This document shows positions 473 through 15,661 of a stretch of DNA of 64,000 nucleotides, in pieces. The notes under the pieces were generated by a model, which ran no database searches, was not told the origin of the DNA, and saw only the letters and a program-made list of their open reading frames with translations. Origin of the DNA: Variovorax sp. 54 (GTDB taxonomy: Bacteria; Pseudomonadota; Gammaproteobacteria; Burkholderiales; Burkholderiaceae_C). A program made the translations under genes and the position numbers. How positions within the stretch are numbered: the stretch's first letter is position 1; each line of letters opens with the position of its first letter. Location: the NCBI RefSeq assembly GCF_002754375.1, contig NZ_PEFF01000001.1:1054001-1118000 (forward strand). The letters run 5' to 3'.

Positions 473-766
473 ATGAAAGCGCAAGACATCATTCCCGACG
501 GTCAGGACTTCGCCGTCATCGACGGCCACACCGTGCGCAAGGGCTCGGTCGGCGCCTTCCTCGCGAATGCGCGCGTGCTCGAGGACGCCAACGCGCCAGC
601 CGACGCACGCCGCATCGCCCGCAACGACCTGCTGTCGCTCGTCCCCACGCTCGCCGCGCTGGGCCTGTTCGACGTCTTCGAACTGCGCTCGCCCGCGCTG
701 CGCGACGAGGTGGCCCGCCATCGCGCGACGCTCAGCCCTGCGCCTGCTGCTTCGCCGCGCGCGTGA
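473..766 (+). CDS. Small conserved-looking hypothetical protein (97 aa)
   Basis: The ATG at 473 follows a good ribosome binding site (AAGGAACAA). The product is 97 residues, soluble and mainly helical, with no signal peptide or membrane segment. It starts MKAQDIIPDGQDFAVIDGHTVRKG, and its core is Ala/Leu-rich and acidic (LLSLVPTLAALGLFDVFELRSP). I do not recognise a named domain. It lies between a divergent AraC-type gene and the convergent ThDP enzyme gene, whose 3' end it overlaps by 35 bases. The good RBS and plausible amino acid composition argue that it is real. Function unknown. Confidence 0.6.
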   Translation: MKAQDIIPDGQDFAVIDGHTVRKGSVGAFLANARVLEDANAPADARRIARNDLLSLVPTLAALGLFDVFELRSPALRDEVARHRATLSPAPAASPRA

Positions 767-2456
767 TCGACGCCAGCGTGCCGCGCGTGGTGATCACTTC
801 GGGGTCGAGCGGGATCTCGATCAGCGTGCCCGTGTCGGCCGCCAGCGCGCGCAGCAGCGCCGCTTCGAACTGCGCCGTCTCGGTGACGCGCTCGGCCGCG
901 TAGCCATACGCACGCGCCAGCCCGCAGAAGTCCGGGTTGCGCAGCGCGGTGCCGCTGGTGCGCTCGGGGTACTCGCGCTCCTGGTGCATGCGGATCGTGC
1001 CGAACATGCCGTTGTTGAGCAGCACGACGATGCTCTTGCCGCCGTGCTGCGAGGCCGTCGCCAGCTCCTGCCCGTTCATCAAAAAGTCGCCGTCGCCCGC
1101 GATGGTGAAGGCCACGCGCCCGGTCGCAATGCTCGCCGCAATGCCGGCCGGCACGCCGTAGCCCATCGCGCCACTGGTCGGCGCCAGCTGCGTCTTGGCG
1201 CCCTTGGCGAGCCCGTGGTAGCGGAAGTAGCGATGCACCCAGCTCGCGAAGTTGCCGGCACCGTTGGTGATGGCTGCATCCGCCGGCAGGTGCTTCTGCA
1301 GCAGCGCCACCACGGCCGCCATGTCGACCGCGCCGCGCGGCGTTTCGGCCGGCATGCCGGTGAGCGCCTGCGGCTCGAGCCAGGCTTCGTAGTCCGCATG
1401 CAGCTGCTGCGCCCAGTCTTCCCACGGCAGCGAAGGCGGCGCGCTCAGCACCTCGAGGCTGCGCGCGGCAGCGCTCATGCCGGCGTTGATCGCCAGGTCG
1501 GCCTGGTAGACGCGGTTCAGTTCCTCGGCGCTCGCGTGGATGTGCACCAGCGTCTGCTTGGCCTTCGGCGCTTCGAGCAGCGTGTAGCCGCCGGTCGTCA
1601 TCTCGCCCAGGCGCGGGCCGATGGCCAGGATCAGGTCGGCGTCCTTCACGTGCTGCGCGAGCTTCGGATTGATGCCAATGCCCACGTCGCCCGCGTACAG
1701 CGGGTGGTGGTTGTCGAAGGTGTCCTGGAAGCGGAAGGCGTTCGCCACCGGCAGGCGCCAGTTCTCAGCAAAGCGCTGCAGCGCCTGGGCCGCCTGCGTC
1801 GTCCAGCCGCCACCGCCTGCGATCACCAGCGGGCGTTGCGACTTCAGCAGCAGCTCGCGCAGCGTGCGCAGCGCGCCCGGGTCGCTCCACGGCTGGACCG
1901 CTTCCACGCGCGCCAACGGCCGTGCCGACGTCTCGGAGCGCAACATGTCTTCTGGTAGCACCAGCACGACCGGGCCCGGCCGGCCATTCATGGCGGTGGA
2001 GAAGGCGCGCGCGATGTATTCGGGAATGCGGTCGGCGTCGTCAATGCGCTCCACACGCTTGGCGAAGCCCTTGGTGCTCGGGCCGAAGAAGCTGGCGTAG
2101 TCCACTTCCTGGAAGGCCTCGCGGTCGCGGAAGTCGCTGCCGACGTCGCCGACGAACAGCACCATCGGCGTCGAATCCTGGAACGCGTTGTGCACGCCGA
2201 TCGATGCATTGGTCGCGCCCGGCCCGCGGGTCACGAAGCACACGCCCGGCCGCCCCGTGAGCTTGCCGTGCGCCTCGGCCATGAAGGCTGCGCCGCCCTC
2301 CTGCCGGTTCACCACGAAGCGTGCGCGGTCGCGGTACGCATGAAAGCCGTCGAGCACCGCCAGGAAACTCTCGCCCGGCACACCGAAGGCGACCTGCATG
2401 CCTTGTTCGACCAGGCACTCGACGATCAGGTGGCCGGCGGGTTGTGATGTACTCAT
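732..2456 (-). CDS. Thiamine diphosphate-dependent enzyme, acetolactate synthase-like
   Basis: The product is 574 residues, the usual length for the acetohydroxyacid synthase / benzoylformate decarboxylase superfamily. An N-terminal pyrimidine-binding domain carries the likely catalytic Glu53 (NRQEGG) and FVTRGPGATNA. A central domain follows, then the C-terminal ThDP/metal motif beginning GDGDF and ending NN (about residues 440-470). I chose the ATG at 2456 over an in-frame start 24 bases upstream because it matches the family N-terminus (GHLIVECLVEQG). The exact reaction (carboligation or decarboxylation of a 2-oxo acid) is not readable. The gene is divergent from the TetR gene at 2552 with an operator-like site between them, so it probably belongs to the same catabolic regulon rather than to branched-chain amino acid synthesis. 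Confidence 0.88.
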   Translation of the reverse strand: MSTSQPAGHLIVECLVEQGMQVAFGVPGESFLAVLDGFHAYRDRARFVVNRQEGGAAFMAEAHGKLTGRPGVCFVTRGPGATNASIGVHNAFQDSTPMVLFVGDVGSDFRDREAFQEVDYASFFGPSTKGFAKRVERIDDADRIPEYIARAFSTAMNGRPGPVVLVLPEDMLRSETSARPLARVEAVQPWSDPGALRTLRELLLKSQRPLVIAGGGGWTTQAAQALQRFAENWRLPVANAFRFQDTFDNHHPLYAGDVGIGINPKLAQHVKDADLILAIGPRLGEMTTGGYTLLEAPKAKQTLVHIHASAEELNRVYQADLAINAGMSAAARSLEVLSAPPSLPWEDWAQQLHADYEAWLEPQALTGMPAETPRGAVDMAAVVALLQKHLPADAAITNGAGNFASWVHRYFRYHGLAKGAKTQLAPTSGAMGYGVPAGIAASIATGRVAFTIAGDGDFLMNGQELATASQHGGKSIVVLLNNGMFGTIRMHQEREYPERTSGTALRNPDFCGLARAYGYAAERVTETAQFEAALLRALAADTGTLIEIPLDPEVITTRGTLASITRAAKQQAQG

Positions 2457-2522
2457 GAAAAATTCGAACCTCAGTTGCAAATGTCTCCGGCAATTATGTG
2501 CGCCCGCCTTCCACGCCTTGTC

Positions 2523-2545
2523 TTAATTCCCCAATTGGTTAAATT
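2523..2545. promoter_or_regulatory. Operator-like site between ThDP enzyme and TetR genes
   Basis: An AT-rich, partly palindromic block (TTAATTCCCCAATTGGTTAA) in otherwise GC-rich DNA lies 7 bases before the TetR start codon. It aligns with the site at 3322-3343, sharing TTAATTC and ATTGGT at identical spacing. It is the likely binding site of the TetR protein, controlling both divergent genes. This is inference from position and similarity. Confidence 0.55.
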
Positions 2546-2551
2546 CGCGTC

Positions 2552-3208
2552 ATGAAGGCCCCCAAGGACTCTTTGCCCGAAACGCTCGAGCCGCGCTCGC
2601 GCGACGCCGACCGCTCGCAGCTGGCCATCCTCGCGTCGGCGCGCGACGAGTTCGCCGCGCGCGGGCTCGCCGGAGCGCGCATGGACAGCATTGCCGAGCG
2701 CGCAGGCCTGAACAAGCGCCTCATCTACTACTACTTCGGCAGCAAGGACGACCTGTTCCTGGCCGTGCTCGAGCGTGTGTACGCCGACATCCGCGCCGCC
2801 GAACAGCGCCTGCACCTGGACGAGATCGAGCCCGTCGAAGCCATTCGCCAGCTGGTGTCGTTCACCTGGCACTACTACCTGGAGCACCCCGAGTTCATCA
2901 CGCTGCTCAACAGCGAGAACCTGCACGGCGCCTCGCACCTGAAGCGCTCCGACCGCATCCAGGAGATGAACTCGCCGCTGGTGCAACTGCTGGCCACCGT
3001 GCTGGAGCGCGGCAAGAAAGACGACCTGTTCCGCGCCGGCGTCGACCCGGTGCAGCTGTACATCTCCATCGCGTCGCTGTGCTACTTCTACCTCTCGAAC
3101 AACCACACGCTGTCGGCCATTTTCGGGCGTGACCTGCGTGCCCCCAAGGCGATGGCGCAACGCCTCTCGCACATGACCGACCTCGTGCTGGGCTACGTCC
3201 TGCACTGA
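2552..3208 (+). CDS. TetR/AcrR-family transcriptional regulator
   Basis: The product is 218 residues. The N-terminal helix-turn-helix is clear: ILASARDEFAARGLAGARMD, then SIAERAGLNKRLIYYYFGSK (residues about 28-66), where the recognition helix and YYYF signature are typical of TetR. The C-terminal ligand domain includes YYLEHPEFITLLNSENLHGA and resembles TetR proteins that control catabolic genes. The gene sits between the divergent ThDP enzyme gene and the eight-gene transport/catabolic operon. Related operator-like sites lie on both sides of it, so it is probably the local regulator and autoregulated. The ligand is unknown. Confidence 0.9.
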   Translation: MKAPKDSLPETLEPRSRDADRSQLAILASARDEFAARGLAGARMDSIAERAGLNKRLIYYYFGSKDDLFLAVLERVYADIRAAEQRLHLDEIEPVEAIRQLVSFTWHYYLEHPEFITLLNSENLHGASHLKRSDRIQEMNSPLVQLLATVLERGKKDDLFRAGVDPVQLYISIASLCYFYLSNNHTLSAIFGRDLRAPKAMAQRLSHMTDLVLGYVLH

Positions 3209-3321
3209 CCGACGACGACCGGCGCGCGCCCCGCCGCGGGCGCACCCACCCTCCTTCTCGTTCTCCGGGTAATCACTAGGCCGCCGCCGTTGACGCTGCG
3301 GCGCAGCCGTTCCTAAAATCG

Positions 3322-3343
3322 TTAATTCACTCATTGGTGAATT
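3322..3343. promoter_or_regulatory. Operator-like palindrome upstream of the catabolic operon
   Basis: AATTCAC and GTGAATT form a perfect inverted repeat with a 6-base spacer (3324-3343), about 40 bases before the TTG start at 3385. The site shares TTAATTC...ATTGGT with the site at 2523-2545. It is the likely second TetR operator, placed to control the operon from 3385 to 11758. Confidence 0.6.
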
Positions 3344-3384
3344 GATCGATCCCAGAATGCGGCCCGACCGCGCGGAGACACACC

Positions 3385-4377
3385 TTGAAGCCCCTTGCCA
3401 GCACTGCACGCACCACCGTCCTTGCCTCGCTGACCTGCATCGCCGCCCTGCTGCCGGGCCTGGCCGCAGCGCAGAACGGCTACCCCACCAAGCCGATCCG
3501 CGTGATCGTTCCTTTCGCTGCCGGCAGCACGACGGACATCATTGCCCGTGCCATCGCCGACAAGATGAGCCTCAGCATGGGCCAGACGCTGGTCATCGAC
3601 AACCGCGGCGGTGCCAGCGGCACCATCGGCCAGCAGGCGGTGGCCACGGCTGCGCCCGACGGCTACACGGTGATGATCCATTCGTCGTCGCACACGGTCA
3701 GCCCCTCCACCTTCGCCAAGCTGCCCTTCGACACGCTGCACGACTTCGCGGGCGTCACGCCCATTTCGTCGCTGCCCAACGCACTGGTCATCTCGCCCAG
3801 CAAGAACATCAAGACCCTGCCGCAGCTGCTGGCCGCCGCGCGCGCCAAGCCCGGCAGCATGAACTTCGCCTCGGCCGGCCAGGGCAGCGCCACGCACCTG
3901 AACGCCGAGAAGTTCAAGATGGCCGCGAAGATCGACGCGACCAACATCCCCTTCAAGGGATCGGGTGAAGCCGTCACCGAGGTGCTGTCGGGCCGCGTCG
4001 ACTACTACTTCTCGCCCATCGCGCCCGTCATCGGCCAGATCAAGGACGGCCAGCTGCTCGCACTGGCCGTGGGCTCGCCCAAGCGCGCCGCCGCCCTGCC
4101 CGACGTGCCCACCACCACCGAGGCCGGCGTGCCGGGCTCCGAGTTCAACTTCTGGATCGGCATGATGGCCCCCGCCAAGACGCCGCGCGACGTCGTCAAC
4201 CGCCTGCACGACGAAGTGGTCAAGGCGCTGGCCACGCCCGAGGTGAAGGAGCGCTTCCTCAAGCTGGGCGCCGACGCCTGGACGCTCAAGCCCGAGCAGT
4301 TCGACGTCTACATCAAGGACGAGATCGCGAGCAACGCGCAGCTCGTGAAGGCCGCCGGCCTGTCGGTCCAGCCGTAG
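3385..4377 (+). CDS. Bug/TctC-family tripartite tricarboxylate receptor protein
   Basis: The product is 330 residues, a typical size for this periplasmic solute receptor family. A signal peptide ends near LAAAQ (residue about 29). Family motifs follow: YPTKPIRVIVPFAAGSTTDI, DNRGGASG, VATAAPDGYT and the C-terminal region FWIGMMAPAKTP. The start is a TTG preceded by CGGAGA, as no in-frame ATG fits. These receptors normally deliver carboxylates to TctAB membrane proteins, but no tctA or tctB gene is present here. ABC transporter genes follow instead. It is the first gene of a closely spaced operon. The ligand is probably a carboxylate, by family only. Confidence 0.92.
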   Translation: MKPLASTARTTVLASLTCIAALLPGLAAAQNGYPTKPIRVIVPFAAGSTTDIIARAIADKMSLSMGQTLVIDNRGGASGTIGQQAVATAAPDGYTVMIHSSSHTVSPSTFAKLPFDTLHDFAGVTPISSLPNALVISPSKNIKTLPQLLAAARAKPGSMNFASAGQGSATHLNAEKFKMAAKIDATNIPFKGSGEAVTEVLSGRVDYYFSPIAPVIGQIKDGQLLALAVGSPKRAAALPDVPTTTEAGVPGSEFNFWIGMMAPAKTPRDVVNRLHDEVVKALATPEVKERFLKLGADAWTLKPEQFDVYIKDEIASNAQLVKAAGLSVQP

Positions 4378-4408
4378 TCCGCAACAAGAGGCTCCAGTCG
4401 TCGTCGCC

Positions 4409-5182
4409 ATGTTCCGCAAGCTCCTGCTCTCCCCGGCCCTGCGCCCGTTCTTCCTGATCCTGTTGCTGCTGGTGCTGTGGGACCTGACGATCCGCCTCTT
4501 CAAGATTCCGGCCTACCTCATTCCCCCGCCGTGGGAGGTCGTGAAGCAGCTCGTGGCCGAATGGCCGCGCCTGCTCGCCGAAGCCTGGAAGACCACGCTC
4601 GCCACGCTCGGCGGCTTCGGGCTGACGATCGTCATCGGCATTCCGATCGCGATGGTCATCGCCTACTCGCGGCTCGTCGAGTCGTACGTGTACCCGCTGC
4701 TGGTGTTCTCGCAGAGCATCCCCAAGGTCGCGATTGCGCCGCTGTTCGTGGTGTGGTTCGGCTTCGGCATCTTCCCGAAGGTGATCAGCGCCTTCCTGCT
4801 GGGCTTCTTCCCGGTGGTGGTGTCGACGGTGATGGGCTTCAAGTCGGTCGAGCCCGACATGCTCGACCTGGCCCGCTCGATGGGCGCGAGCCGCCTGCAG
4901 ACCTTCTTCAAGATCAGCCTGCCGCAGGCCCTGCCCGCGATCTTCAGCGGCCTGAAGGTGTCGGTCACGCTGGCCGTGGTGGGTGCGGTGGTCGGCGAAT
5001 TCGTCGGTTCCAACTCAGGCATCGGCTACGTGCTGCAGGTGGCCAACGGCAACTTCGACCTGCCGCTGATGTTCGCCGCGCTCGTCGTGCTGTCGAGCAT
5101 CGGCGTCATTCTTTTCGTCGCCGTCGACCTGGTCGAGCGCGTGATGATTCCGTGGCATGCCTCGCAGCGCCACGTGCAGTGA
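4409..5182 (+). CDS. ABC transporter permease, SsuC/TauC type
   Basis: The product is 257 residues with about six hydrophobic helices. The permease-ATPase coupling loop is visible as DLARSMGASRLQTFFKISLPQALPAIF-type sequence (about residues 152-180), typical of nitrate/sulfonate/taurine-type inner-membrane permeases. The gene lies 31 bases after the receptor gene and 40 bases before the binding-protein gene, and forms one importer with the products of 5223 and 6254. The substrate class for this family spans sulfonates, pyrimidines and aromatic acids and cannot be narrowed from sequence. Confidence 0.93.
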   Translation: MFRKLLLSPALRPFFLILLLLVLWDLTIRLFKIPAYLIPPPWEVVKQLVAEWPRLLAEAWKTTLATLGGFGLTIVIGIPIAMVIAYSRLVESYVYPLLVFSQSIPKVAIAPLFVVWFGFGIFPKVISAFLLGFFPVVVSTVMGFKSVEPDMLDLARSMGASRLQTFFKISLPQALPAIFSGLKVSVTLAVVGAVVGEFVGSNSGIGYVLQVANGNFDLPLMFAALVVLSSIGVILFVAVDLVERVMIPWHASQRHVQ

Positions 5183-5222
5183 ACTCCCTCGTCATACCCA
5201 GAAAACTCCCGGAGACAACGCC

Positions 5223-6230
5223 ATGAAGAAACTGCTGCTTCCCTCGCTGCTCGCCGCAGCCGCGCTCGCCACCTTCGCCATCGCCCCCGCCCACGCGCAG
5301 GGCGACAAGCCGAAGGACAAGGTCACGCTGATGCTCAACTGGTACCTGTACAGCGAGCACGCGCCCTTCTTCCTGGGCAAGGAGAAAGGCTTCTACGCCG
5401 AGGAAGGCATCGAGCTCGACATCCAGGAAGGCCGCGGCTCCGCCGTCACCGCGCAGGCGGTGGCTGCCAAGTCGGCGACCTTCGGCTACATCGACGTCAC
5501 CACCATGATCAAGGCTGCCGCCAAGGGCGCGCCGCTGAAGTCGACCGGCGTGCTGTTTCAGGTGAGCCCGATGTCGGTCATGGGCTTCACCGAGAAGAAC
5601 ATCAAGACACCCAAGGACATCATCGGCAAGACCGTGGCCGTGACGCCCGGCGATTCGATGTCGCAGATGTGGCCGCTGTTCCTCAAGGTCAACAACATCA
5701 AGGCCGACCAGGTGAAGATCGTCTCGGGCGACGGCCAGACCAAGCTCAATGCCGTGACCAACGGCCAGGCTGATCTGCTGCTGGGCTACGTGATGGACCA
5801 GGCCATCAAGCTGCAGGACGCCACCGGCAAGCCGGTAACGCCGATCCGGTTTGCCGACTCGGGCGTGAACCAGATCAGCTCCGGGATCATCACCAACAAG
5901 AACCTGCTGACCGAGAACCCCGACCTCGTGAAGCGCTTCATGCGCGCCTCCACCAAGGCCGCCGAAGCCGCAGAGAAGAGCCCTGAGGCCGCAGTCGACG
6001 CGATGCTCAAGGCCAACCCGAAGGCCGGCGTGCGTGACACGCTCATCGTCGGCATGAAGCAGAGCGTGGCGCTGTATCACACGAAGGACACAGCCAACCA
6101 ACGGCCGTTCCGCGTGGCGATGAAGAACGTCAACGACTCGCTCGACCTGCTGGTGCAGTACGGCGGCATGGATGCGTCCACGCGCGGTAAGCCCGAGGAC
6201 TACGTCACCCTGGACTTCCTGCCGAACTGA
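5223..6230 (+). CDS. ABC transporter substrate-binding protein, NMT1/ThiY-like
   Basis: The product is 335 residues, exported by an N-terminal signal peptide cleaved near AHAQ (residue about 24). The NMT1/SsuA-like start of the mature domain is clear (LMLNWYLYSEHAPFF, then KGFYAEEGIEL). I chose the ATG at 5223, which has GGAGACA just upstream, over an in-frame ATG at 5157 that would lie inside the preceding gene. It is the periplasmic binding component for the permease at 4409 and the ATPase at 6254. The ThiY/NMT1 relationship suggests a small heterocyclic or aromatic ligand, but this is only a family tendency. Confidence 0.92.
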   Translation: MKKLLLPSLLAAAALATFAIAPAHAQGDKPKDKVTLMLNWYLYSEHAPFFLGKEKGFYAEEGIELDIQEGRGSAVTAQAVAAKSATFGYIDVTTMIKAAAKGAPLKSTGVLFQVSPMSVMGFTEKNIKTPKDIIGKTVAVTPGDSMSQMWPLFLKVNNIKADQVKIVSGDGQTKLNAVTNGQADLLLGYVMDQAIKLQDATGKPVTPIRFADSGVNQISSGIITNKNLLTENPDLVKRFMRASTKAAEAAEKSPEAAVDAMLKANPKAGVRDTLIVGMKQSVALYHTKDTANQRPFRVAMKNVNDSLDLLVQYGGMDASTRGKPEDYVTLDFLPN

Positions 6231-6253
6231 TTTCCTGCCCTCTCACGCATCCC

Positions 6254-7033
6254 ATGTCCCAAGTCACCCTGATCGAAGCGCGCGGCGTCTCGAAGACCTA
6301 CCAGAGCAAGGACGGCCCGGTCGAGTCGCTCAAGCCGCTCGACTTCGCCATCCGTGAAGGCGAGTTCGTCTCCGTCGTCGGCCCCTCGGGCTGCGGCAAG
6401 AGCACGCTGCTCAAGATGGTCGCGGGCCTGCTGCCGATCAGCGGCGGCGAGCTCACGCTGGCCGGCAAGCCGATCAAGGGGCCGCAGAAGGACGTGGGCA
6501 TCGTGTTCCAGAGCGCCGTGCTGCTGCCCTGGCGCAGCGTGGAAGACAACATCCTGCTGCAGGCCGAGATGCGCCACCTGCCCAAGGCCGCCTCGCAGGC
6601 CCGGGCGCGCGAACTGATGCACATGGCCGGCCTCAAGGGCTTCGAGGGCAAGTACCCGTGGCAGCTGTCGGGCGGCATGCAGCAACGCGCGTCGATCTGC
6701 CGCGCGCTGCTGCACGACCCGTCGGTGCTGCTGATGGACGAGCCCTTCGGCGCGCTTGATGCGATGACGCGCGAGAAGATGAACCTCGAGCTGCAGCGCA
6801 TCTGGATGGCCTCGAAGAAGACCGTGATGCTCATCACCCACAGCATCCCCGAGGCGATCTTTCTCTCGGACCGCGTGATCGTGATGAGCGAACGCCCCGG
6901 CTCGATCGCCGCGGTGTACGACATCGACCTGCCGCGCCCGCGCACGCTGGACATGATGGCGTCGCCCGAGTTCGGCCAGTACACGAAGCTGGTGCGCGCG
7001 CATTTCTTCTCGCAGGGCATCCTGGACCACTGA
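6254..7033 (+). CDS. ABC transporter ATP-binding protein, SsuB/TauB type
   Basis: The product is 259 residues with all ATPase motifs: Walker A GPSGCGKST (about residues 45-53), Q-loop FQSAVLLPW, signature LSGGMQQR, Walker B LLMDEPFGALD and the switch histidine in ITHSIPEAI. It energises the importer formed with the permease (4409) and binding protein (5223). It lies 23 bases after the binding-protein gene and 7 bases before the enolase-superfamily gene, which ties uptake to catabolism in one transcript. Confidence 0.95.
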   Translation: MSQVTLIEARGVSKTYQSKDGPVESLKPLDFAIREGEFVSVVGPSGCGKSTLLKMVAGLLPISGGELTLAGKPIKGPQKDVGIVFQSAVLLPWRSVEDNILLQAEMRHLPKAASQARARELMHMAGLKGFEGKYPWQLSGGMQQRASICRALLHDPSVLLMDEPFGALDAMTREKMNLELQRIWMASKKTVMLITHSIPEAIFLSDRVIVMSERPGSIAAVYDIDLPRPRTLDMMASPEFGQYTKLVRAHFFSQGILDH

Positions 7034-7040
7034 AGCGGCC

Positions 7041-8474
7041 ATGACCGACGCGCCCCGTTTCCACATCGAAGAGGTCCGCTTCGCCGAGCGCGACGTGGCC
7101 CTGCGCCTGCCGTTCCGCTTCGGCGCCGCCACCGTCACCGCCTGCCCGCAGGTCTACGTGCGGGCGCGCATCCGTTTCGAGAACGGCCGCACCGCCGAAG
7201 GCTGCGCGGCCGAGATGATGGTGCCCAAGTGGTTCGACAAGAACCCGGCACTCACCAACGAGCAGAACTTCGAGCAGCTGCGCTTTGCGCTGCGCGATGC
7301 ACGCGACGCGTACGTCGGCGAAGACGATGCGCAGACCGCGTGGACGCACTTCGCCTCGAACTACGCTGCGCTGCAAGCCCGCGCGAAGGCCAAGGGACTG
7401 CAGGCGCTGGTGGCTAGCTACGGCCCGGCACTGATCGACCGCGCGGTGATGGACGCGCTGTGCCTGCACACCGGCACGAGCTTCGCAACGGCGATGAGCG
7501 CCAACCTCTGCGGCATCGACATCGCCGGCAGTGGCCTCGCCGACGATCTCGCGGGCTTCGACATGCCCGCCTTCCTCGGCCGCCAATCGCCGCGCGCCAG
7601 CATCGCCGCACGCCACACCGTCGGCCTGGCCGATGCGATCGACGACAGCGACGCGCTGCCCGACGCGCCCACCGATGGCCTGCCTGCCACGCTCGCCGCG
7701 GCGGTGAAGCGCTACGGCCTCACGCACTTCAAGCTCAAGCTCTGCGGCAACACCGCACAGGACATCGACCGTCTCCAGCGCATCGCCCGCGTGATCGACG
7801 GCCACGCGCAGCTCGTGACGCTCGATGGCAACGAGCAGTACGCCGATGCCGACGACTTCGCCGTCTTTCTCGACCGCATGCTCTCCACGCCCGTGCTGTG
7901 GAAGCTCGCGCAGAAGACGGTCTTCGTCGAACAGCCGATCCGCCGCGATGCCGCCTTGGAGCGCAGCGTGTCGGCACTGGGCAAGCGCATCCCACTGCTC
8001 GTCGACGAATCCGACGGCACGCTCGATGCCTTCGTGCAGGCGCGCGCGCTCGGCTACACCGGCGTGTCGAGCAAGAGCTGCAAGGGCTTCTACAAATCGG
8101 TGGTCAATGCGGCGCGTTGCGCACACTGGAATGCGGCACAAGACAAGCCGCGCTACTTTCTCTCCGGCGAAGACCTGACCATGCAGGCCGGTATCGGTGT
8201 GCAGCAAGACCTCGCGCTCGTCGGCTGGCTCGGCCTGTCGCATGTCGAGCGCAACGGCCACCACTACGTCAACGGCCTCGCGGCCGTGCCCGAGGCCGAG
8301 CAGCAGGCGCTGTCGCAGCTGCACCCCGGCCTCTACGAAACCAGCGACGGCGCCACGCGCCTCGCCCTCCGCGACGGACAGTTGTCCCTGTCCTCGCTCG
8401 CCACCGCGCCCGGCTTTGCCACCGGCAAACCCGGCGCCGGCATCTCGTGGGACGCCATGCGTTCCGTCTACTGA
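7041..8474 (+). CDS. Enolase-superfamily enzyme (mandelate racemase/MLE-like), unassigned subgroup
   Basis: The product is 477 residues, longer than the usual 370-400 of the superfamily. The C-terminal half shows the barrel catalytic layout: K231-x-K233 (FKLKL), metal ligands Asp262 (LDGNEQY), Glu297 (FVEQPI) and Asp322/Glu323 (LVDESDG), and Lys345/Lys348 (SSKSCKG) on the opposite face. Enzymes of this fold abstract a proton next to a carboxylate, giving dehydration, racemisation or cycloisomerisation. A dehydratase of a sugar acid or related hydroxy acid fits the neighbouring dehydrogenase and aldolase-like genes. I cannot assign it to a named subgroup. Confidence 0.85.
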   Translation: MTDAPRFHIEEVRFAERDVALRLPFRFGAATVTACPQVYVRARIRFENGRTAEGCAAEMMVPKWFDKNPALTNEQNFEQLRFALRDARDAYVGEDDAQTAWTHFASNYAALQARAKAKGLQALVASYGPALIDRAVMDALCLHTGTSFATAMSANLCGIDIAGSGLADDLAGFDMPAFLGRQSPRASIAARHTVGLADAIDDSDALPDAPTDGLPATLAAAVKRYGLTHFKLKLCGNTAQDIDRLQRIARVIDGHAQLVTLDGNEQYADADDFAVFLDRMLSTPVLWKLAQKTVFVEQPIRRDAALERSVSALGKRIPLLVDESDGTLDAFVQARALGYTGVSSKSCKGFYKSVVNAARCAHWNAAQDKPRYFLSGEDLTMQAGIGVQQDLALVGWLGLSHVERNGHHYVNGLAAVPEAEQQALSQLHPGLYETSDGATRLALRDGQLSLSSLATAPGFATGKPGAGISWDAMRSVY

Positions 8475-8506
8475 AGCACCCCTCTCGCATCCCAAGGAAG
8501 AAAACG

Positions 8507-9670
8507 ATGGCCACCCAACGTCTCGGAATCATCATGCACGGCGTCACCGGCCGCATGGGCATGAACCAGCACCTGATCCGCTCCATCTGCGCGATCCGCG
8601 CGCAAGGCGGCGTCACACTGTCGAACGGCGACAAGGTCATGCCCGACCCGATCCTCATCGGCCGCAACGCCGAGAAGATGGAAGCGCTCGCCAAAACCCA
8701 CCACATCGCACGCTGGGGCACCGACCTCGACAAGGCGCTCGAGAACAAGGACGACACCATCTTCTTCGACGCCGGCACCACGCAGATGCGCCCCACGCTG
8801 CTGGCCAAGGCCATCCGCGCCGGCAAGCACGTGTACTGCGAGAAGCCGATCGCGACCAACCTAAACGAAGCCGTGGAAATCGCGCGCCTGGCCGAAGGCT
8901 CGGGCCTCAAGCACGGCGCGGTGCAGGACAAGCTCTTCCTGCCCGGCCTGCGCAAGCTCGACATGCTGCGCCGCGCCGGCTTCTTCGGTCGCATGCTCAG
9001 CGTGCGCCTGGAGTTCGGCTACTGGGTGTTCGAGGGCGACCTGCAGCCCATCCAGCGCCCGAGCTGGAACTACCGCAAGGAAGACGGCGGCGGCATGATC
9101 CTGGACATGATGTGCCACTGGCGCTACGTGCTGGACAACCTGTTCGGCGAGGTGAAGTCGGTCTCGTGCATCGGCGCGACGCACATCCCCAAGCGCTGGG
9201 ACGAAGCCGGCCAGCCGTATGAAGCCACCGCCGACGACGCGGCCTACGCCACCTGCGAACTCACCGGCCACAACGGCGAGCCGGTGATCGCACAGATCAA
9301 CATGAGCTGGGCCACGCGCGTGCGCCGCGATGACCTCGTGACCTTCCACGTCGACGGCACCGACGGCTCTGCCGTGGCCGGTCTGTCGAGCTGCCGCGCC
9401 CAGTCGCGCGTCGCCACGCCGCGCCCGGTGTGGAACCCCGACGAGAAGCAGATGATGAATTTCTTCGACCAGTGGCAGGAGATTCCGGATTCGCAGGTCT
9501 ACGACAACGGCTTCAAGATCCAGTGGGAGCATTTCATTCGCCACGTGGTCGAGAACGAGCCCTACAAGTGGACGCTGCCCGAAGGCGCCAAGGGCGTGCA
9601 GTTGGTCGAGGCTGCGCTCGAATCGTGGCAAGACCGCCGCTGGGTCGATGTGCCCGCGCTGAAGGTCTGA
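8507..9670 (+). CDS. Gfo/Idh/MocA-family NAD(P)-dependent dehydrogenase
   Basis: The product is 387 residues. The N-terminal nucleotide-binding region begins LGIIMHGVTGRMGMN, the family signature Glu112-Lys113-Pro114 (CEKPIATNL) provides the catalytic Lys, and His204 (DMMCHW) is the usual second active-site residue. The start at 8507 has AAGGAAG upstream. The family oxidises sugar or polyol hydroxyls. Between an enolase-superfamily enzyme and a DUF993 aldolase-like enzyme, it is likely the oxidative step of a sugar-like or cyclitol-like substrate pathway. Substrate unknown. Confidence 0.9.
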   Translation: MATQRLGIIMHGVTGRMGMNQHLIRSICAIRAQGGVTLSNGDKVMPDPILIGRNAEKMEALAKTHHIARWGTDLDKALENKDDTIFFDAGTTQMRPTLLAKAIRAGKHVYCEKPIATNLNEAVEIARLAEGSGLKHGAVQDKLFLPGLRKLDMLRRAGFFGRMLSVRLEFGYWVFEGDLQPIQRPSWNYRKEDGGGMILDMMCHWRYVLDNLFGEVKSVSCIGATHIPKRWDEAGQPYEATADDAAYATCELTGHNGEPVIAQINMSWATRVRRDDLVTFHVDGTDGSAVAGLSSCRAQSRVATPRPVWNPDEKQMMNFFDQWQEIPDSQVYDNGFKIQWEHFIRHVVENEPYKWTLPEGAKGVQLVEAALESWQDRRWVDVPALKV

Positions 9671-9683
9671 CGAAGCACACGCC

Positions 9684-10871
9684 ATGGCACTGTCGCTGAC
9701 CCTCCCCACCGCGAGCGGCGCGCTCGCGCCCTACGCCCTGCGCGGCACCGCGCCGGTGAAGCCCGAAGCGGGCGTCAAGTTCAACCGCATCGCCTACTCC
9801 GCCGCGCACGTCGTGGCCGACCCGCTCGCGGCCGTCGACCCGTGGCTGCAAGCGGCGGTCGATTGGGACACCACCATCGCTTATCGCCGCCACCTGTTCT
9901 CGCTCGGCCTGGGCGTGGCCGAAGCGATGGACACCGCGCAACGCGGCATGGGCCTGGACTGGCCCACGTCGCTCGAGCTGATCCGCCGCTCGCTCGATGC
10001 GGCGAAAGATGTGCCGGGCGCGCTCGTCGCCTCGGGCTGCGGCACCGACCACCTGAACATCGACGACGTGAAGAGCGTCGACGACGTGATCCGCGGCTAC
10101 GAAGAACAGATGGCCGCCATCGAAGCGCTCGGCGGCAAGTTGATCGTGATGGCGAGCCGCGCACTGGCCCGCGTGGCGAAGAGCCCTGCGGACTACGAAC
10201 GCGTGTACGACCGCATCCTGAGCCAGGCAAAGCAACCCGTGGTGCTGCACTGGCTGGGCGACATGTTCGACCCTGCCCTCGCGGGCTACTGGGGCACGAA
10301 GGACGTCGATGCAGCGATGGACACCGCCGTGGGCATCATCGCGGCGCATCCGGACAAGGTCGACGGCATCAAGATTTCGCTGCTCGACAAGGACAAGGAA
10401 ATCGCGATGCGCCGCCGCCTGCCGAAGGGCGTGCGCATGTACACCGGCGACGACTTCAACTACGCCGAGCTGATCGCCGGCGACGGCTTCGGCAGCGAGC
10501 CGACGCACGGCAAGAGCGATGCGCTGCTGGGCATCTTCGACGCCATCGCGCCTGCCGCGAGTGCTGCGCTCGGTGCACTGGCCCAAGGCAACACCGAGAA
10601 GTTCCACGCGATCCTCGGCCCGACGGTTCCGTTGTCGCGTCACATCTTCGCGGCACCCACGCGCTTCTACAAAACGGGCGTGGTGTTCATGGCCTGGCTC
10701 AACGGCCACCAGACGCACTTCACGATGGTGGGCGGCCAGCAGAGCACGCGTTCGCTGCAGCACTTCGCGGAGCTGTTCCGCCTCGCAGATGCGGCGAACC
10801 TGCTGGAGCAACCCGAGCTTGCGGTGCGGCGCATGAAGACGTTGCTGGCCTTGCACGGCGTGGAAGGTTGA
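9684..10871 (+). CDS. DUF993 protein, dihydrodipicolinate synthase-like lyase
   Basis: The product is 395 residues. The region around VDGIKISLLD places Lys230 where the DapA/NAL-type class I aldolases carry the Schiff-base lysine, and MYTGDDFNY followed by THGKSDALLGIF matches the downstream substrate-pocket block. The family (DUF993) is annotated only as dihydrodipicolinate synthase-like. A carbon-carbon lyase or dehydratase acting on a 2-keto acid is likely. The gene lies 13 bases after the Gfo/Idh/MocA gene and 8 before the isomerase gene. This trio probably acts in sequence on one substrate. Confidence 0.85.
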   Translation: MALSLTLPTASGALAPYALRGTAPVKPEAGVKFNRIAYSAAHVVADPLAAVDPWLQAAVDWDTTIAYRRHLFSLGLGVAEAMDTAQRGMGLDWPTSLELIRRSLDAAKDVPGALVASGCGTDHLNIDDVKSVDDVIRGYEEQMAAIEALGGKLIVMASRALARVAKSPADYERVYDRILSQAKQPVVLHWLGDMFDPALAGYWGTKDVDAAMDTAVGIIAAHPDKVDGIKISLLDKDKEIAMRRRLPKGVRMYTGDDFNYAELIAGDGFGSEPTHGKSDALLGIFDAIAPAASAALGALAQGNTEKFHAILGPTVPLSRHIFAAPTRFYKTGVVFMAWLNGHQTHFTMVGGQQSTRSLQHFAELFRLADAANLLEQPELAVRRMKTLLALHGVEG

Positions 10872-10879
10872 CCGAGGCC

Positions 10880-11758
10880 ATGCGCGACTTCTCGAAGAAC
10901 CACGACTGGCTGTCAATCAACACGGCCACCATCCGCAAGCAGTCGGGCGCCGAGGTGCCGCTCGACCGCCTCATCGACCAGTGCGCCGAACGCGGCATCC
11001 GCGCCATCAGCCCGTGGCGCGACCAGGTCGCGGCAGTCGGGCTCGACAAGGTGGCCAAGCAGCTGAAGGCGCATGGCATCGGCCTCTCGGGCTATTGCCG
11101 CGGCGGCTTCTTCCCGGCGCCCGATGCGGCAGGACTGAAGGCCGCGCTCGACGACAACCGCCGCGCCATCGACGAAGCCAAGACGCTGGACGCGCCCTGT
11201 CTTGTGCTCGTCGTCGGTGCCCTGCCCGGTGCGCTCGAAGGAAAGGTGGCCTACAAGGACATCGGACGCGCGCGCGACGAGGTGCGCGACGGCATCGCCG
11301 CATCGCTGGAATACGCCCGTGAGGTCGGCATGCCGCTGGCCATCGAGCCCCTGCATCCCATGCAAGCGGCCGACCGCGCCTGCATCAACACGCTCGAACA
11401 CGCGCTCGACCTGTGCGACGAACTCGATGCGGGCAAGACCGGCATGCTCGGCGTGGCGCTCGACATCTATCACGTGTGGTGGGACCCGAAGCTGCAGCAA
11501 CAGATCGCCCGCGCTGGCCGCGAACGGCTGCTGGCGTACCACGTCTGCGACTGGCTCACGCCGACGCGTGACCTGCTCTCCGATCGCGGGATGATGGGCG
11601 ACGGCGTGGTCGAGTTGAAGAAGATTCGCGGCTGGGTCGAGGACGCGGGCTTTGCCGGGTTCAGCGAGGTCGAGATCTTCTCGAACCTCGACTGGTGGCA
11701 GCGCCCCGGCGCCGAGACGCTCGACGTCTGCATCGAACGACACCGCAGCGCGGTCTGA
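10880..11758 (+). CDS. Sugar phosphate isomerase/epimerase (AP endonuclease 2-like TIM barrel)
   Basis: The product is 292 residues from the ATG at 10880, 8 bases after the previous stop. The fold is visible in metal-ligand blocks: IEPLHPM (first Glu and a His), LGVALDIYHVWWDP (Asp/His), YHVCDWLTP and the C-terminal SEVEIF (last Glu). Enzymes of this fold isomerise or epimerise ketoses and inositol derivatives. It is the last gene of the catabolic operon and most likely interconverts an intermediate for the Gfo/Idh/MocA or DUF993 enzyme. Exact substrate unknown. Confidence 0.88.
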   Translation: MRDFSKNHDWLSINTATIRKQSGAEVPLDRLIDQCAERGIRAISPWRDQVAAVGLDKVAKQLKAHGIGLSGYCRGGFFPAPDAAGLKAALDDNRRAIDEAKTLDAPCLVLVVGALPGALEGKVAYKDIGRARDEVRDGIAASLEYAREVGMPLAIEPLHPMQAADRACINTLEHALDLCDELDAGKTGMLGVALDIYHVWWDPKLQQQIARAGRERLLAYHVCDWLTPTRDLLSDRGMMGDGVVELKKIRGWVEDAGFAGFSEVEIFSNLDWWQRPGAETLDVCIERHRSAV

Positions 11759-11806
11759 TCGATCCGACCGAAGCGAAAGGCAGCCGCTTGTGCTGCAATT
11801 CGCCCC

Positions 11807-12904
11807 ATGGCTGACCCGACCCTCGACGACCTGCGCCGCTACGCCGTCGCGCGCACCCTCTTCACGCCCACGACGCTCCCCGCCGCGATCCGCAAGCTCG
11901 GCTTCGTGCAGGCCGACCCGATCCGCGCGCCCGCGCGTGCACAAGACCTCACGCTGCGCCACCGTGTGAAGGACTACCGCGCGGGCGATCTCGAAAGCCG
12001 CTACGCGCGGCTGGCGATCGAGGAAGATTGCCTCGTCAACTACGGCTTCCTGCCGCGCGAGCACCTGGCGCTGATGCATCCGCGCGAAGCCAAGCAGGCC
12101 TGGGACGCCGACACGCGCCGCAAGGCCGCCGACGTGCTGGCCTATGTGCGCGAACACGGGCCGGTGCATCCGCGCCAGGTCGAGCAGCACTTTGCGCATG
12201 GCCGCATCCAGAACTACTGGGGCGGCTCCAGCAATGCCACCACGCACCTGCTCGACGGCATGCACTACCGGGGCCTGCTGCGCGTGGTGCGGCGCGACAG
12301 CGGCACGCGGGTCTATGAAGCGGTGAACCATCTGCCCGCCGACGACAGCCCCGCCGGGCGCGCGCTGCGTGCGGCGGCATTGATCGTGCTGGTGGTGCGC
12401 AAGTACGCGCCGCTGCCGGCCACGAGCCTGACCTACCTCGTGCGCCTGCTCGGCTACGGCGCGCCGCACCTCGCCGCGCAAACGCAGGCGGCGCTGCGGC
12501 TGGCGCGCGACGAGCTGCTGGCCAGTTGCCGCTTCGACGGCACCACCTGGTACTGGCCCGCCGACGAGAAGCCCGCCTCGCGCCGCCATGCGCCCGACGA
12601 CGCAGTGCGCCTGCTCGCACCCTTCGACCCGGTGGTCTGGGACCGCCGCCGCTTCGAGCTGCTGTGGGGCTGGACGTACAAGTTCGAGGCCTACACGCCC
12701 GCGCCGAAACGGCAGTTCGGCTACTACGCGCTGCCGATGCTGTGGCACGACCGCGTGATCGGCTGGGCCAACGTGAGTGCGCCGGAAGGCCGATTGCAGC
12801 CGGCGTTCGGCTACGCCGATGCGAAGAAGCCGCACGGCGCGGCCTTCCGCACCGGCCTCGACGAAGAACTGCACCGCATGACGCAGTTCCTCTCCGGCCG
12901 CTGA
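11807..12904 (+). CDS. YcaQ/AlkX-like winged-helix protein (DNA interstrand crosslink glycosylase family)
   Basis: The product is 365 residues. Family blocks are clear: QADPIRAPARAQDLTLRHRV near the N-terminus, and LLAPFDPVVWDRRRFELLWG with KFEAYTPAPKRQFGYYALP near the C-terminus. The AlkZ/YcaQ (HTH_42) family has tandem winged helices and includes glycosylases that unhook DNA crosslinks. The QxD/QxQ catalytic motif of characterised members appears to be represented by Q-A-D at about residues 31-33, which fits the YcaQ branch. The gene lies 48 bases after the catabolic operon and may be read through, but has no evident link to it. Confidence 0.8.
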   Translation: MADPTLDDLRRYAVARTLFTPTTLPAAIRKLGFVQADPIRAPARAQDLTLRHRVKDYRAGDLESRYARLAIEEDCLVNYGFLPREHLALMHPREAKQAWDADTRRKAADVLAYVREHGPVHPRQVEQHFAHGRIQNYWGGSSNATTHLLDGMHYRGLLRVVRRDSGTRVYEAVNHLPADDSPAGRALRAAALIVLVVRKYAPLPATSLTYLVRLLGYGAPHLAAQTQAALRLARDELLASCRFDGTTWYWPADEKPASRRHAPDDAVRLLAPFDPVVWDRRRFELLWGWTYKFEAYTPAPKRQFGYYALPMLWHDRVIGWANVSAPEGRLQPAFGYADAKKPHGAAFRTGLDEELHRMTQFLSGR

Positions 12905-13219
12905 CGCCGCCTTTTATAATCGCCCGCCTCAGCCAGCCGCCCGCGCCCGCCGCGAGCCCGCCAGCCGTCTTCGAAGGAACGAAGACGCAGCAGCCCGAGC
13001 AACGACACCTTTCGTCGTCGCACCCGGCCACTGCCCCCACGACGCCGTAGACACACAACACCAGCCGGTGCGCTTTCCTTTCGGAAGGCGCCACGGCACG
13101 CGCTCGTTCGTTTCCGTTTTTCGCTCGCACCCGAGAAGCCATGGCGCGCCCCAATCGCGCGCCGCAGCCACTCCCCCGCCCTAGACACATCCGACCGCAG
13201 GACACAGGAGAAGCTGCAC
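12905..13219 (+). other. Intergenic leader before the TonB receptor gene
   Basis: These 315 bases hold no convincing gene. A TATAAT lies at about 12915-12920. Two stem-forming repeats follow: GTCTTCG/CGAAGAC at 12967-12986, and GCGCTTTCC/GGAAGGCGC at 13070-13091 with a 4-base loop. CAGGAGAAG just before 13220 is the ribosome binding site. No Fur-box-like sequence was seen. The stems could be leader RNA structure, but they match no riboswitch class I know. Confidence 0.4.
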
Positions 13220-15400
13220 ATGACATTCAAGAACCGTCGCCCCGGAACGCCGCTCACGCGGCGGGGCTATGCCACGCTCGCGGCCACCGCCGTGGCGCTC
13301 GCCGCCAGCGCACACGCCCACGCACAAGAAGCCGCCGCCGCCGACACACGGCAGGCGCTGCCCACCGTGACCGTCTCGGGCGATGCGGGTGAAACCGCCA
13401 CCGGTCCCGTGACGGGCTTTGTCGCCAAGCGCGGCAGCACCGCCACCAAGACCGACACGCCACTCATCGAAACGCCGCAGGCCATCTCGGTCGTCACACG
13501 CGACCAGATCGAGGCCCAAGGCGCACTCACCCTGCGCGAGACCACCAACTACACGGCCGGCGTGGTGTCGAGCTACTTCGACAGCCGCGTGGATTCGTTC
13601 AAGGCGCGCGGCGGCGAGGCCACGCAGTACCTCGACGGATTGCAGCGCACCTACGGCACCTACAACGCCAGCCGGCCCGACCCGTACATGCTCGAACGCG
13701 TGGAGCTGCTGCGCGGTCCTTCGTCGGTGCTGTACGGCCAGGGCGGCATCGGCGGCGTGCTCAACCTCGTGTCCAAGCGCCCGCAGGCCGAGACGCAGCG
13801 CGAGGTGCAGCTGCAGCTGGGCAGCCACTCGCGCAAGCAGATCGCCGCCGATTTCACCGGCTCGCTCGATCCCGAGAGCAAGTGGATGTACCGCCTCGTG
13901 GCCGTGAACCGCGACAGCGGCACGCAGGTCGACCACGTGTCGGACGACCGCATCGCGATCGCGCCCTCGCTCACCTGGCGCCCGAACGCCGACACCTCGC
14001 TCACGCTGCAGGCGTCGTACCAGAAGGACAAGAGCGGTTCGCTGATCGGCTTCTTCCCGTGGCAAGGCACGCTGCTGCCCTCGCTGTACGGGCGCATCCC
14101 AACCTCGACCTTCACCGGCGAGCCCGGCTTCGACCGCTTCGACACGCGCAGCACCTCGCTCGGCTACCTGTTCAGCCACCGCATCAACGACACCTGGACG
14201 GTGCGCCAGAACCTGCGCTCAACGGAGAGCAAGGTCTGGTACAACACCTCGTACACCAGCTTCGCGGCCAACCGCCTCACGGGCCGTCCGGCGCGCCCGG
14301 TGTTCAACGCCGACCAGCGCACCATCGAGCGCGACCTGAGCAGCGACATCAACGGCGGCAAGATGCTGCTGCTCGACAACCAGGCCGAAGCACACTTCAA
14401 GACCGGCGAGGTCGAGCACACGCTGCTGCTGGGCGCCGACTTCCAGCGCAACACCACCTCCAAGCTCTCGGGCCGCGGCCGTGCGGGCGCGCTCGACGTG
14501 TACGCGCCGGTGTACGGCAACTACACAGCCCCCACCAGCTACACGCGCGCACCCGAGGTGGTGCAGAAGCAGGCCGGCTTGTATGTGCAGGACCAGGTCA
14601 AGTACGGCCGCTGGATCGGCCTGCTGGGCCTGCGCCACGACAAGGCCACCACCGACACCGAAGGCCGCCCCGCCGCGGCGGCCGACGACAAGGCCACCAC
14701 CAAGCGCGCCGGCCTGGTCTACCTGGCCGACGGCGGCTGGGCGCCGTACCTGAGCTATGCCGAATCGTTCCTGCCGCTGGGCGGCGTCGACACGTCGAAC
14801 AACCCCTTCAAGCCCCAGCGCGGCAAGCAGTGGGAAGCCGGCGTGAAGTGGGAGCCGGCGGGCCAGCGCACTTCGTTCATGGCGGCCGTGTACGACCTGC
14901 GCGACACCAACCGCAAGACCACCGACCCGACCAACCCGCTCAACAGCGTGCAGCTCGGCGAAGTGCACGTGAAGGGCCTGGAGCTCGAGTACAAGGGCAG
15001 CATCGCGCGCGACTGGGACTGGACCACTTCATACGCGTACACCGACGCACGCGTGTCGAAGAGCAACGGCTCCGACCTGGGCAAGCGCATCTCGGGCGTG
15101 CCCAAGCACACGGCCTCGGCCTGGGTGACCAAGCGCTTCTCGATCGGCGGCCTGCACGGCTTCTCGGCCGGCGGCGGCGTGCGCTACATGGGCAAGTCGT
15201 ACGACGGCATGGACAACAACCCCGTGCCCGCGGTCACGCTGTTCGACGCGATGTTCGCGTGGGACAACGGCCCGCTGCGCCTGGCGCTCAACGTGGCCAA
15301 CCTGACCGACAAGGTGCAGATCACCACCTGCCTGGCGCGCGGCGACTGCTTCTACGGCCAGCGCCGTACCCTGACCGCGAGCGCCACGTACCGCTTCTGA
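13220..15400 (+). CDS. TonB-dependent siderophore receptor, FhuA/FpvA type
   Basis: The product is 726 residues, normal for the family. A long signal peptide ends near AHAQE (residue about 36). The plug domain follows, with DTPLIETPQAISVVTRDQI and the block RVELLRGPSSVLYGQGGIGG (about residues 160-180). The remainder is a 22-strand beta barrel ending in the aromatic C-terminus TYRF required for outer-membrane insertion. A short Cys pair (CLARGDC) precedes the last strand. It imports a ferric siderophore or similar chelate using TonB-ExbBD, which is encoded elsewhere. No Fur box or adjacent fecIR pair is visible, so its regulation is unclear. Confidence 0.93.
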   Translation: MTFKNRRPGTPLTRRGYATLAATAVALAASAHAHAQEAAAADTRQALPTVTVSGDAGETATGPVTGFVAKRGSTATKTDTPLIETPQAISVVTRDQIEAQGALTLRETTNYTAGVVSSYFDSRVDSFKARGGEATQYLDGLQRTYGTYNASRPDPYMLERVELLRGPSSVLYGQGGIGGVLNLVSKRPQAETQREVQLQLGSHSRKQIAADFTGSLDPESKWMYRLVAVNRDSGTQVDHVSDDRIAIAPSLTWRPNADTSLTLQASYQKDKSGSLIGFFPWQGTLLPSLYGRIPTSTFTGEPGFDRFDTRSTSLGYLFSHRINDTWTVRQNLRSTESKVWYNTSYTSFAANRLTGRPARPVFNADQRTIERDLSSDINGGKMLLLDNQAEAHFKTGEVEHTLLLGADFQRNTTSKLSGRGRAGALDVYAPVYGNYTAPTSYTRAPEVVQKQAGLYVQDQVKYGRWIGLLGLRHDKATTDTEGRPAAAADDKATTKRAGLVYLADGGWAPYLSYAESFLPLGGVDTSNNPFKPQRGKQWEAGVKWEPAGQRTSFMAAVYDLRDTNRKTTDPTNPLNSVQLGEVHVKGLELEYKGSIARDWDWTTSYAYTDARVSKSNGSDLGKRISGVPKHTASAWVTKRFSIGGLHGFSAGGGVRYMGKSYDGMDNNPVPAVTLFDAMFAWDNGPLRLALNVANLTDKVQITTCLARGDCFYGQRRTLTASATYRF

Positions 15401-15470: not shown

Positions 15471-15500
15471 CGCGCCGTCGTCCGGTTCGCCGGACGGCAA

Positions 15501-15656: not shown

Positions 15657-15661
15657 GAAAT

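Follow-up and report, generated by a model that had tools for sequence, protein, structure and literature searches.

The galactarolactone route (Udh-Gci-KdgD) combines a dehydrogenase, an enolase-superfamily enzyme and a member of the dihydrodipicolinate synthase (DHDPS) superfamily. The same logic is found in an eight-gene operon of Variovorax sp. 54 that lies in the stretch of DNA analysed here (the window; 64,000 nucleotides of contig NZ_PEFF01000001.1, positions 1,054,001 to 1,118,000 of the forward strand). The operon encodes a 477-amino-acid enolase-superfamily enzyme (ENO), which lacks a sequence match to Gci, and a DHDPS-fold enzyme of the DUF993 family; a Gfo/Idh/MocA-family dehydrogenase (GFO) and a xylose-isomerase-like TIM barrel (ISO) are present besides. 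Direct relatives of DUF993, GFO and ISO, that is, of three of these four enzymes, have been solved (4dnh, 3oqb and 3ju2), and the nearest such entries carry generic names only (uncharacterized protein, oxidoreductase, sugar isomerase, xylose isomerase). We propose that the operon serves the catabolism of a polyhydroxylated carboxylic acid, the likeliest being a sugar acid (for instance a hexuronate or aldonate derivative). A carboxylated, polyhydroxylated substrate appears reasonably likely; for the full route set out below, the case for and against is about balanced.

All eight genes (Table 1) lie on one strand, with open reading frames in the expected span and order and a Pfam assignment that agrees for each, so that the compact unit with 7–40 bp spacing described in an earlier note on this DNA is borne out; the gaps along the operon, calculated from gene coordinates, are 31, 40, 23, 7, 32, 13 and 8 bp. 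The unit exceeds these genes, as it also comprises a TetR-family regulator gene on the same strand, a divergent gene for a thiamine pyrophosphate (TPP)-dependent enzyme, and a promoter/operator region. Neither a TctA nor a TctB gene is found within the operon, and TctC is hence an orphan. To judge from the gene spacing and from a single promoter-like site and palindrome, the gene run very probably forms a single operon under TetR control. The genome, a single 6.64-Mb contig, has one DUF993 gene.

Linkage of these genes was assessed in the best 80 of at least 578 ENO relatives (597 stretches), with genes counted by tblastn within 10 kb of ENO in the 51 loci that had at least 8 kb of flanking sequence on each side. 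DUF993 and GFO were each present near ENO in 38 of the 51 well-flanked loci, TetR in 36 and ISO in 35; GFO, DUF993 and ISO occurred together in 33. Since the 80 loci hold many near relatives, broader samples were needed. In 299 genomes of the family, own genome included, DUF993 is present in 63 and ENO (E at most 1e-30) in 40. DUF993 is found in 36 of these 40, at a distance of at most 12 kb in 31 and of at most 4 kb in 27 (Fisher p 7e-25, a value that is overstated because the genomes are related). Among 299 Pseudomonadota genomes, again including our own, ten had a strong ENO match, nine of them together with DUF993, which lay within 4 kb in eight; the other 12 of 22 matching genomes showed weak matches only (E 4e-8 to 8e-4) and were dropped as general enolase-superfamily matches. 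Moreover, the order TetR-permease-NMT1-ATPase-ENO-GFO-DUF993-ISO is kept in five genomes from another class of the same phylum (L128–L131, L144), where identity to the window proteins is 58–61% for NMT1, 70–72% for GFO and 40–42% for ENO. With the same arrangement seen in another class and a statistical association among the genes, the operon is beyond a chance assembly. Two further genes were seen in these surroundings. An AlkZ-like DNA glycosylase gene (11807–12904, same (+) strand) begins 48 bp past the operon end and is close to ENO in 12 of the 51 loci, 11 of them titled Variovorax; it is possibly co-transcribed with the operon and has no evident tie to the pathway. A Meth_synt_2 (MetE-like) gene is close to ENO in eight loci (L039, L042, L045, L063, L066, L076, L078, L092) and might point to a methyl group in some substrates.

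DUF993 has the TIM-barrel fold of the DHDPS/N-acetylneuraminate lyase superfamily. A structural search returned 4dnh (SMc04132 of Sinorhizobium meliloti, solved in 2012; 529 bits by sequence) first and then DHDPS-family entries only among the best 50 rows listed; no type I dehydroquinase is among these 50, which does not exclude one. Profile comparison aligned the C-terminal part of DUF993 without significance. All 34 aligned rows share Lys230, which lies on the sixth barrel strand (226–232), 25 residues ahead of a GDD motif, as does K161 in DapA. Fold and spacing thus agree with the suggestion that Lys230 occupies the Schiff-base position, and it is predicted to be the imine-forming lysine. 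In contrast to DapA and NanA, the DUF993 sequence and its consensus lack the pyruvate-carboxylate motif G-[ST]-[ST]-G-E (GTTGE type) after strand 2, and Tyr133-Asn134 of DHDPS is replaced by His189-Trp190 (aligned by eye). We consider it likely that DUF993 is a lysine-imine lyase or dehydratase. Its oxidising partners seem to differ from context to context, which fits a ketone substrate. ENO-less surroundings include LacI, another Gfo protein, a CoA-transferase, an enoyl-CoA hydratase and an aldehyde dehydrogenase, or else two GMC oxidoreductases plus an SDR protein beside a CUT1 importer; in Erwinia, DUF993 is accompanied by MFS, GFO and ISO. A relative in Paraburkholderia caribensis (L162; 77% identity) adjoins a CoA-transferase and a shikimate-dehydrogenase-like protein (PF08501); the gene for the latter (8122–8946 of that locus) is annotated as ThiF adenylyltransferase.

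ENO was compared with the MLE-type enolases (muconate-lactonizing enzyme, dipeptide epimerase and N-succinylamino-acid racemase; 3dg6, 3q45, 2p88), with which it shares the two-domain fold of capping domain and modified TIM barrel, the KxK motif, the metal-ligand positions and the lysines after barrel strand 6. Identity is only 14–21% over 321–362 of the 477 residues (50 rows listed), and ENO is set apart by a WFDK motif that does not vary within its capping region and by the marginal character of its NCBIfam and PDB sequence matches. Pfam recognises MR_MLE_C alone, and a threshold of E 0.01 brings up no N-terminal enolase model. Seven residues are the same in all 32 aligned rows: K231 and K233 (the KxK motif, on strand 229–233), D262, E297 and D322 (predicted acidic metal ligands at the ends of the predicted strands 258–262, 293–297 and 319–322), and K345 and K348 (after strand 341–343), either of which could be the catalytic base. 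Among curated NCBIfam models the sole match was HProlDhtase, at 16.7 bits against a cut-off of 500, and PDB sequences at E up to 1 yielded a single match, a dipeptide epimerase (26 bits). In a homologue search, 7997 of the 8000 candidates scored had an E-value of 1e-3 or less, with generic names among the 120 matches listed; the nearest named relatives are from Variovorax (94–95% identity). The view that this long enzyme is unusual is therefore upheld, in that NCBIfam, PDB and profile searches revealed no close characterised relative, solved structures included. Its assignment as a dehydratase, by contrast, was not established, as its MLE-like lysines would suit an epimerase or a cycloisomerase just as well.

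GFO scores over the cut-offs for its Pfam domains, and at least 98% of 59 rows retain the lysine of its EKP motif (K113) as well as D200 and H204 of its DxxxH motif. It matches 3oqb with 633 bits and falls short of the cut-offs of the NCBIfam models for levoglucosan dehydrogenase (49.6; cut-off 650) and IolG (64.2; cut-off 355). In ISO, residues E156, D195, H221, E263 and E265 are kept in at least 98% of 46 rows, and the Glu/Asp/His/Glu set would act as metal ligands; its solved relatives are 3ju2 (SMc04130; 344 bits), 3qc0 and 7vpf. Going by locus tags alone, the DUF993 and ISO genes of S. meliloti 1021 would lie close together. That GFO, DUF993 and isomerase families are known together holds as a statement on gene context; the names of the closest solved relatives are generic. 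The earlier note also knew of no described pathway with this gene set, and our literature searches concur: the open-access literature yielded none via locus tags (SMc04130–33, SMc04134–38), PF06187, PDB codes or gene combinations, and a search of 5.39 million open-access papers, a set in which most subscription papers and preprints are not included, turned up none that mentions DUF993 by name. A gene table in a study on the polyhydroxybutyrate regulator PhaR lists SMc04132 and SMc04133.

Besides GFO-DUF993-ISO (module A), a second group of genes is frequently found next to ENO. This module B consists of F13 (NAD-dependent epimerase/dehydratase family), F11 (DHDPS family, with weak matches to solved sialate lyase and DHDPS only), F10 (AP_endonuc_2, psicose-epimerase-like) and a TTT transporter. 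DUF993 or F11, which is its counterpart in module B, is near ENO in 45 of the 51 well-flanked loci, with DUF993 only in 25, F11 only in seven, both in 13 and neither in six. A quick ENO tree with long branches, used only for clade membership of the window protein, places the latter in a clade of 20 rows, 18 of which come from NMT1/module-A loci. The five genomes of another class, whose GFO, DUF993, NMT1 and permease proteins are 58–72% identical to those of the window, fall outside this clade; faster evolution of their ENO, or its replacement inside an otherwise inherited operon, may account for this. Transporters vary as well: 18 of the 51 loci have an NMT1-type ATP-binding cassette (ABC) system alone, 19 TTT alone, three TRAP alone, eight mixtures and three none that was recognised. 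A Paroceanicella relative has a TTT transporter, and in Sinorhizobium a carbohydrate (CUT1) ABC importer is divergent from TetR-GFO-DUF993-ENO-ISO. In Rhizobium leguminosarum, ENO occurs with a dipeptide-type ABC importer, KduI/IolB, GH39, a TIM barrel and a 2-hydroxyacid dehydrogenase, and no DUF993 is found in the stretch examined. Overall, rhizobial relatives show CUT1 importers, GH39 plus KduI/IolB close to ENO, or DUF2264 close to GFO-DUF993-ISO. The shared requirement on the substrate would be a carboxylate with carbohydrate character.

The candidate operator conforms to the motif TTMACYNNNNRGTKAA, of which the 80 related loci contain 50 copies; 20 shuffles gave 0.45 on average and the reversed pattern none. 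Forty-five occurrences, spread over 35 loci, lie at most 450 bp upstream of system genes, 19 of them before TctC and the others before TetR, permease, gfo, eno, TPP, F13 and TTT TctC genes; the remaining five fall inside the F13 representative, probably in the 5′ part of an over-long version of it. These sites are not independent because close relatives from Variovorax account for many of the loci. Relatives were also scanned between TPP and TetR, in a region extended by at most 60 bp into TPP and 30 bp into TetR; an operator-like site there is exact in five of 18 cases and within one mismatch in 16 of 18, a figure that comes without its own chance control for such short regions (the genome-wide rate is 35 per 6.64 Mb); the site of the window has one mismatch. 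The TPP gene, which encodes a clear member of NF006052 (782.7 bits; cut-off 539) with moderate matches to solved TPP enzymes (best 216 bits), is for this reason regarded as a probable member of the TetR regulon. The regulator itself shares TetR architecture with RutR, from which it differs in target genes and by its score with the NCBIfam equivalog (76.7 bits, far under the cut-off of 368). The layout of the palindrome resembles what we take to be the RutR box, for which our literature search gave no confirmation.

Taken together, we propose the following sequence of events. The upstream TetR protein would repress the operon until a ligand lifts it, and the NMT1-ABC system, perhaps helped by the orphan TctC, would import the acid. 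The lysines of ENO may then take the proton adjacent to the carboxylate, followed by beta-elimination or epimerisation, and ISO may isomerise an aldose/ketose-type intermediate. GFO would turn a hydroxyl into a ketone with NAD(P) as oxidant, at which Lys230 of DUF993 could form an imine that leads to retro-aldol cleavage of the chain or loss of water; a 2-keto-acid product would be processed by the TPP enzyme of the same regulon. The enolase superfamily and the TTT or TRAP transporters of relatives argue for an acid as substrate, and its carbohydrate-like nature is suggested by the psicose-epimerase-like F10 beside ENO and by CUT1, GH39, KduI/IolB and DUF2264 in rhizobial relatives. The chemistry is proposed on the basis of the ENO fold, the fold and lysine of DUF993 and the conserved residues of GFO and ISO. 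Step order and substrate identity are our reading of these data, and the sequence of oxidation, dehydration and cleavage suggested earlier was likewise not established.

Several points weigh against this proposal. No substrate, activity or phenotype is on record for the system, and to our knowledge NMT1-type importers are untypical for sugar acids. The absence of the pyruvate-binding motif makes an ordinary keto-deoxy-acid aldolase reaction of DUF993 unlikely. The CoA-transferase, shikimate-dehydrogenase-like and enoyl-CoA hydratase neighbours of DUF993 would be superfluous for a plain sugar-acid route. None of the 80 ENO loci has GH39, KduI/IolB or DUF2264 nearby; these families are confined to rhizobial loci and hence are weak hints. 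ENO occurs without DUF993 in 13 of the 51 well-flanked loci and without both DUF993 and F11 in six. On the regulatory side, the sigma-70-like promoter, the single match on both strands of 2400–13300, is weak taken alone because shuffled sequences gave a mean of 0.7. The exact motif is found once in the whole genome, at the palindrome of this operon, and the reversed control pattern is likewise found once, so that its position carries more meaning than its count. Sites with one mismatch show no excess either (35 versus 37 for the control in 6.64 Mb). Regulon members elsewhere in the genome were therefore discounted, with the exception of the TPP-TetR site kept by relatives, and the sites of the Variovorax genome are supported by position and conservation only.

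Modules A and B might also be branches for stereoisomers that ENO, as an epimerase or racemase, joins within one TetR regulon, a model that we regard as unlikely. It is compatible with the MLE-type lysines, with the 13 loci that have both DUF993 and F11, and with the presence of the same motif before F13 and TTT TctC genes. The genome of Variovorax sp. 54 itself holds a second cluster at about 5.23 Mb (5226600–5232260) with an F13 SDR gene, a GNAT acetyltransferase gene, a DHDPS-like F11 gene, a TetR paralogue (51%) and another NMT1 protein (33%). However, this module-B cluster has no exact operator copy, no close F10 is encoded in the genome (best 27%), and 25 loci have DUF993 without F11 nearby, seven the reverse.

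The unexplained CoA-transferase contexts feed another model, in which the substrate is a carbocyclic acid (a cyclitol or a shikimate/quinate-like compound), DUF993 acts as a Schiff-base dehydratase like type I dehydroquinase, and ISO is a second dehydratase or isomerase. It draws on the shikimate-dehydrogenase-like neighbour of the P. caribensis DUF993 relative, similar proteins close to ENO in two other loci (L072, 41%; L054, 36%), the KduI/IolB-type gene that adjoins ENO in Rhizobium, and the weak likeness of F10 and ISO to TIM barrels of inositol and psicose pathways. As such shikimate-dehydrogenase-like genes are near only two of the 80 ENO loci, and the Paraburkholderia copy scores under the cut-off of all 16 shikimate dehydrogenase models listed, we consider this model rather unlikely.

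Degradation of an aromatic or N-heterocyclic acid would be in line with the NMT1/SsuA-type binding protein and the orphan TctC, and NMT1-ABC genes are near 25 of the 51 loci, many of them from close Variovorax relatives. In addition, a Rhodococcus F11 cluster has CoA-transferase and enoyl-CoA hydratase genes, with ring-hydroxylating dioxygenase genes about 8 kb away. The Pfam content of the operon, however, includes no oxygenase, amidase or ring-opening family, TTT genes are near equally many loci (25 of 51), and Sinorhizobium uses carbohydrate importers, which makes such a function quite improbable. The hint at heterocycles or aromatic acids that had been drawn from the NMT1 importer is accordingly weak, since the same enzymes also occur with TTT, TRAP, CUT1, dipeptide-type and MFS transporters.

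A diverged form of the known uronate oxidation route (uronate dehydrogenase, galactarolactone cycloisomerase, keto-deoxy-glucarate dehydratase), whose logic of SDR dehydrogenase, enolase-superfamily and DHDPS-superfamily enzyme recurs in module B, is very improbable: ENO does not match 4ggb/4hpn, which we take to be galactarolactone cycloisomerase, by sequence at E up to 1 or by profile at 0.01, F11 weakly matches only sialate lyase and DHDPS structures, and we know of no counterparts of GFO and DUF993 in that route. A glyoxylate carboligase pathway was dropped, as the TPP protein is only 26–28% identical to E. coli Gcl and no Hyi or GlxK match was detected in the loci compared at the limit used. 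GlxR-like proteins (26–32%) are present in six loci (L030, L033, L042, L054, L078, L084); that of L084 belongs to the 3-hydroxyisobutyrate/threonate dehydrogenase family and scores under every cut-off. Pyruvate kinase genes in four loci (L069, L072, L078, L091) may, at a guess, reflect a chromosomal glycolytic cluster.

Table 1. Genes and candidate regulatory sites of the operon region (window positions).
Feature	Position	Strand	Remarks
TPP-dependent enzyme (PRK08199 subfamily, acetolactate-synthase-like), divergent	732..2480	-	NCBIfam NF006052
Second, weaker operator-like site, TPP-TetR gap	2525..2544		core TTCCCCAATTGGTTAA, 1 mismatch vs TTMACYNNNNRGTKAA
TetR-family regulator, RutR-like	2552..3208	+	Pfam TetR_N, TetR_C_29
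Sigma-70-like promoter TTGACG-18-TAAAAT	3290..3319	+	
Candidate operator palindrome AATTCACTCATTGGTGAATT, perfect, 20 bp	3324..3343		4 bp past -10 element
TctC/Bug-type solute-binding protein, orphan	3385..4377	+	start TTG; Pfam TctC 7e-71
ABC importer permease	4409..5182	+	Pfam BPD_transp_1
NMT1/THI5-type ABC solute-binding protein	5223..6230	+	Pfam NMT1 1.6e-46
ABC importer ATPase	6254..7033	+	Pfam ABC_tran
ENO, 477-aa enolase-superfamily enzyme, MLE-like fold	7041..8474	+	Pfam MR_MLE_C 2.4e-9
GFO, Gfo/Idh/MocA-family dehydrogenase	8507..9670	+	Pfam GFO_IDH_MocA
DUF993, dihydrodipicolinate-synthase-fold enzyme	9684..10871	+	Pfam DUF993 1e-187
ISO, AP_endonuc_2/xylose-isomerase-like TIM barrel	10880..11758	+	Pfam AP_endonuc_2

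Further downstream in the window, a TonB-dependent receptor gene (13220–15400) precedes a flavin mononucleotide (FMN) riboswitch (Rfam RF00050, 108.2 bits; 15499–15658, + strand), 113 bp downstream of which lies a gene for 6,7-dimethyl-8-ribityllumazine synthase (15772–16284, + strand). An open reading frame of 3729 amino acids (52603–63792, - strand) has a TPS secretion domain and DUF3739 and resembles filamentous haemagglutinin-like exoproteins.

Our analysis contributes to the description of what could, with about an even chance, be a widespread undescribed route for a sugar-like or carbocyclic acid, with a new family of long enolases that carries out a new kind of proton abstraction, a new DUF993 lysine-imine lyase or dehydratase that acts on a ketone not next to a carboxylate, and a TetR regulon with two exchangeable modules for oxidation and cleavage. 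The enzyme superfamilies involved are already known, and the novelty would lie in a catabolic operon without an assigned pathway that pairs an unusual enolase with a lyase-like enzyme. TetR may serve as a sensor of the pathway substrate. A defined context is now available for the ENO and DUF993 families: an operon, a palindrome that relatives conserve and two modules that can take each other's place.

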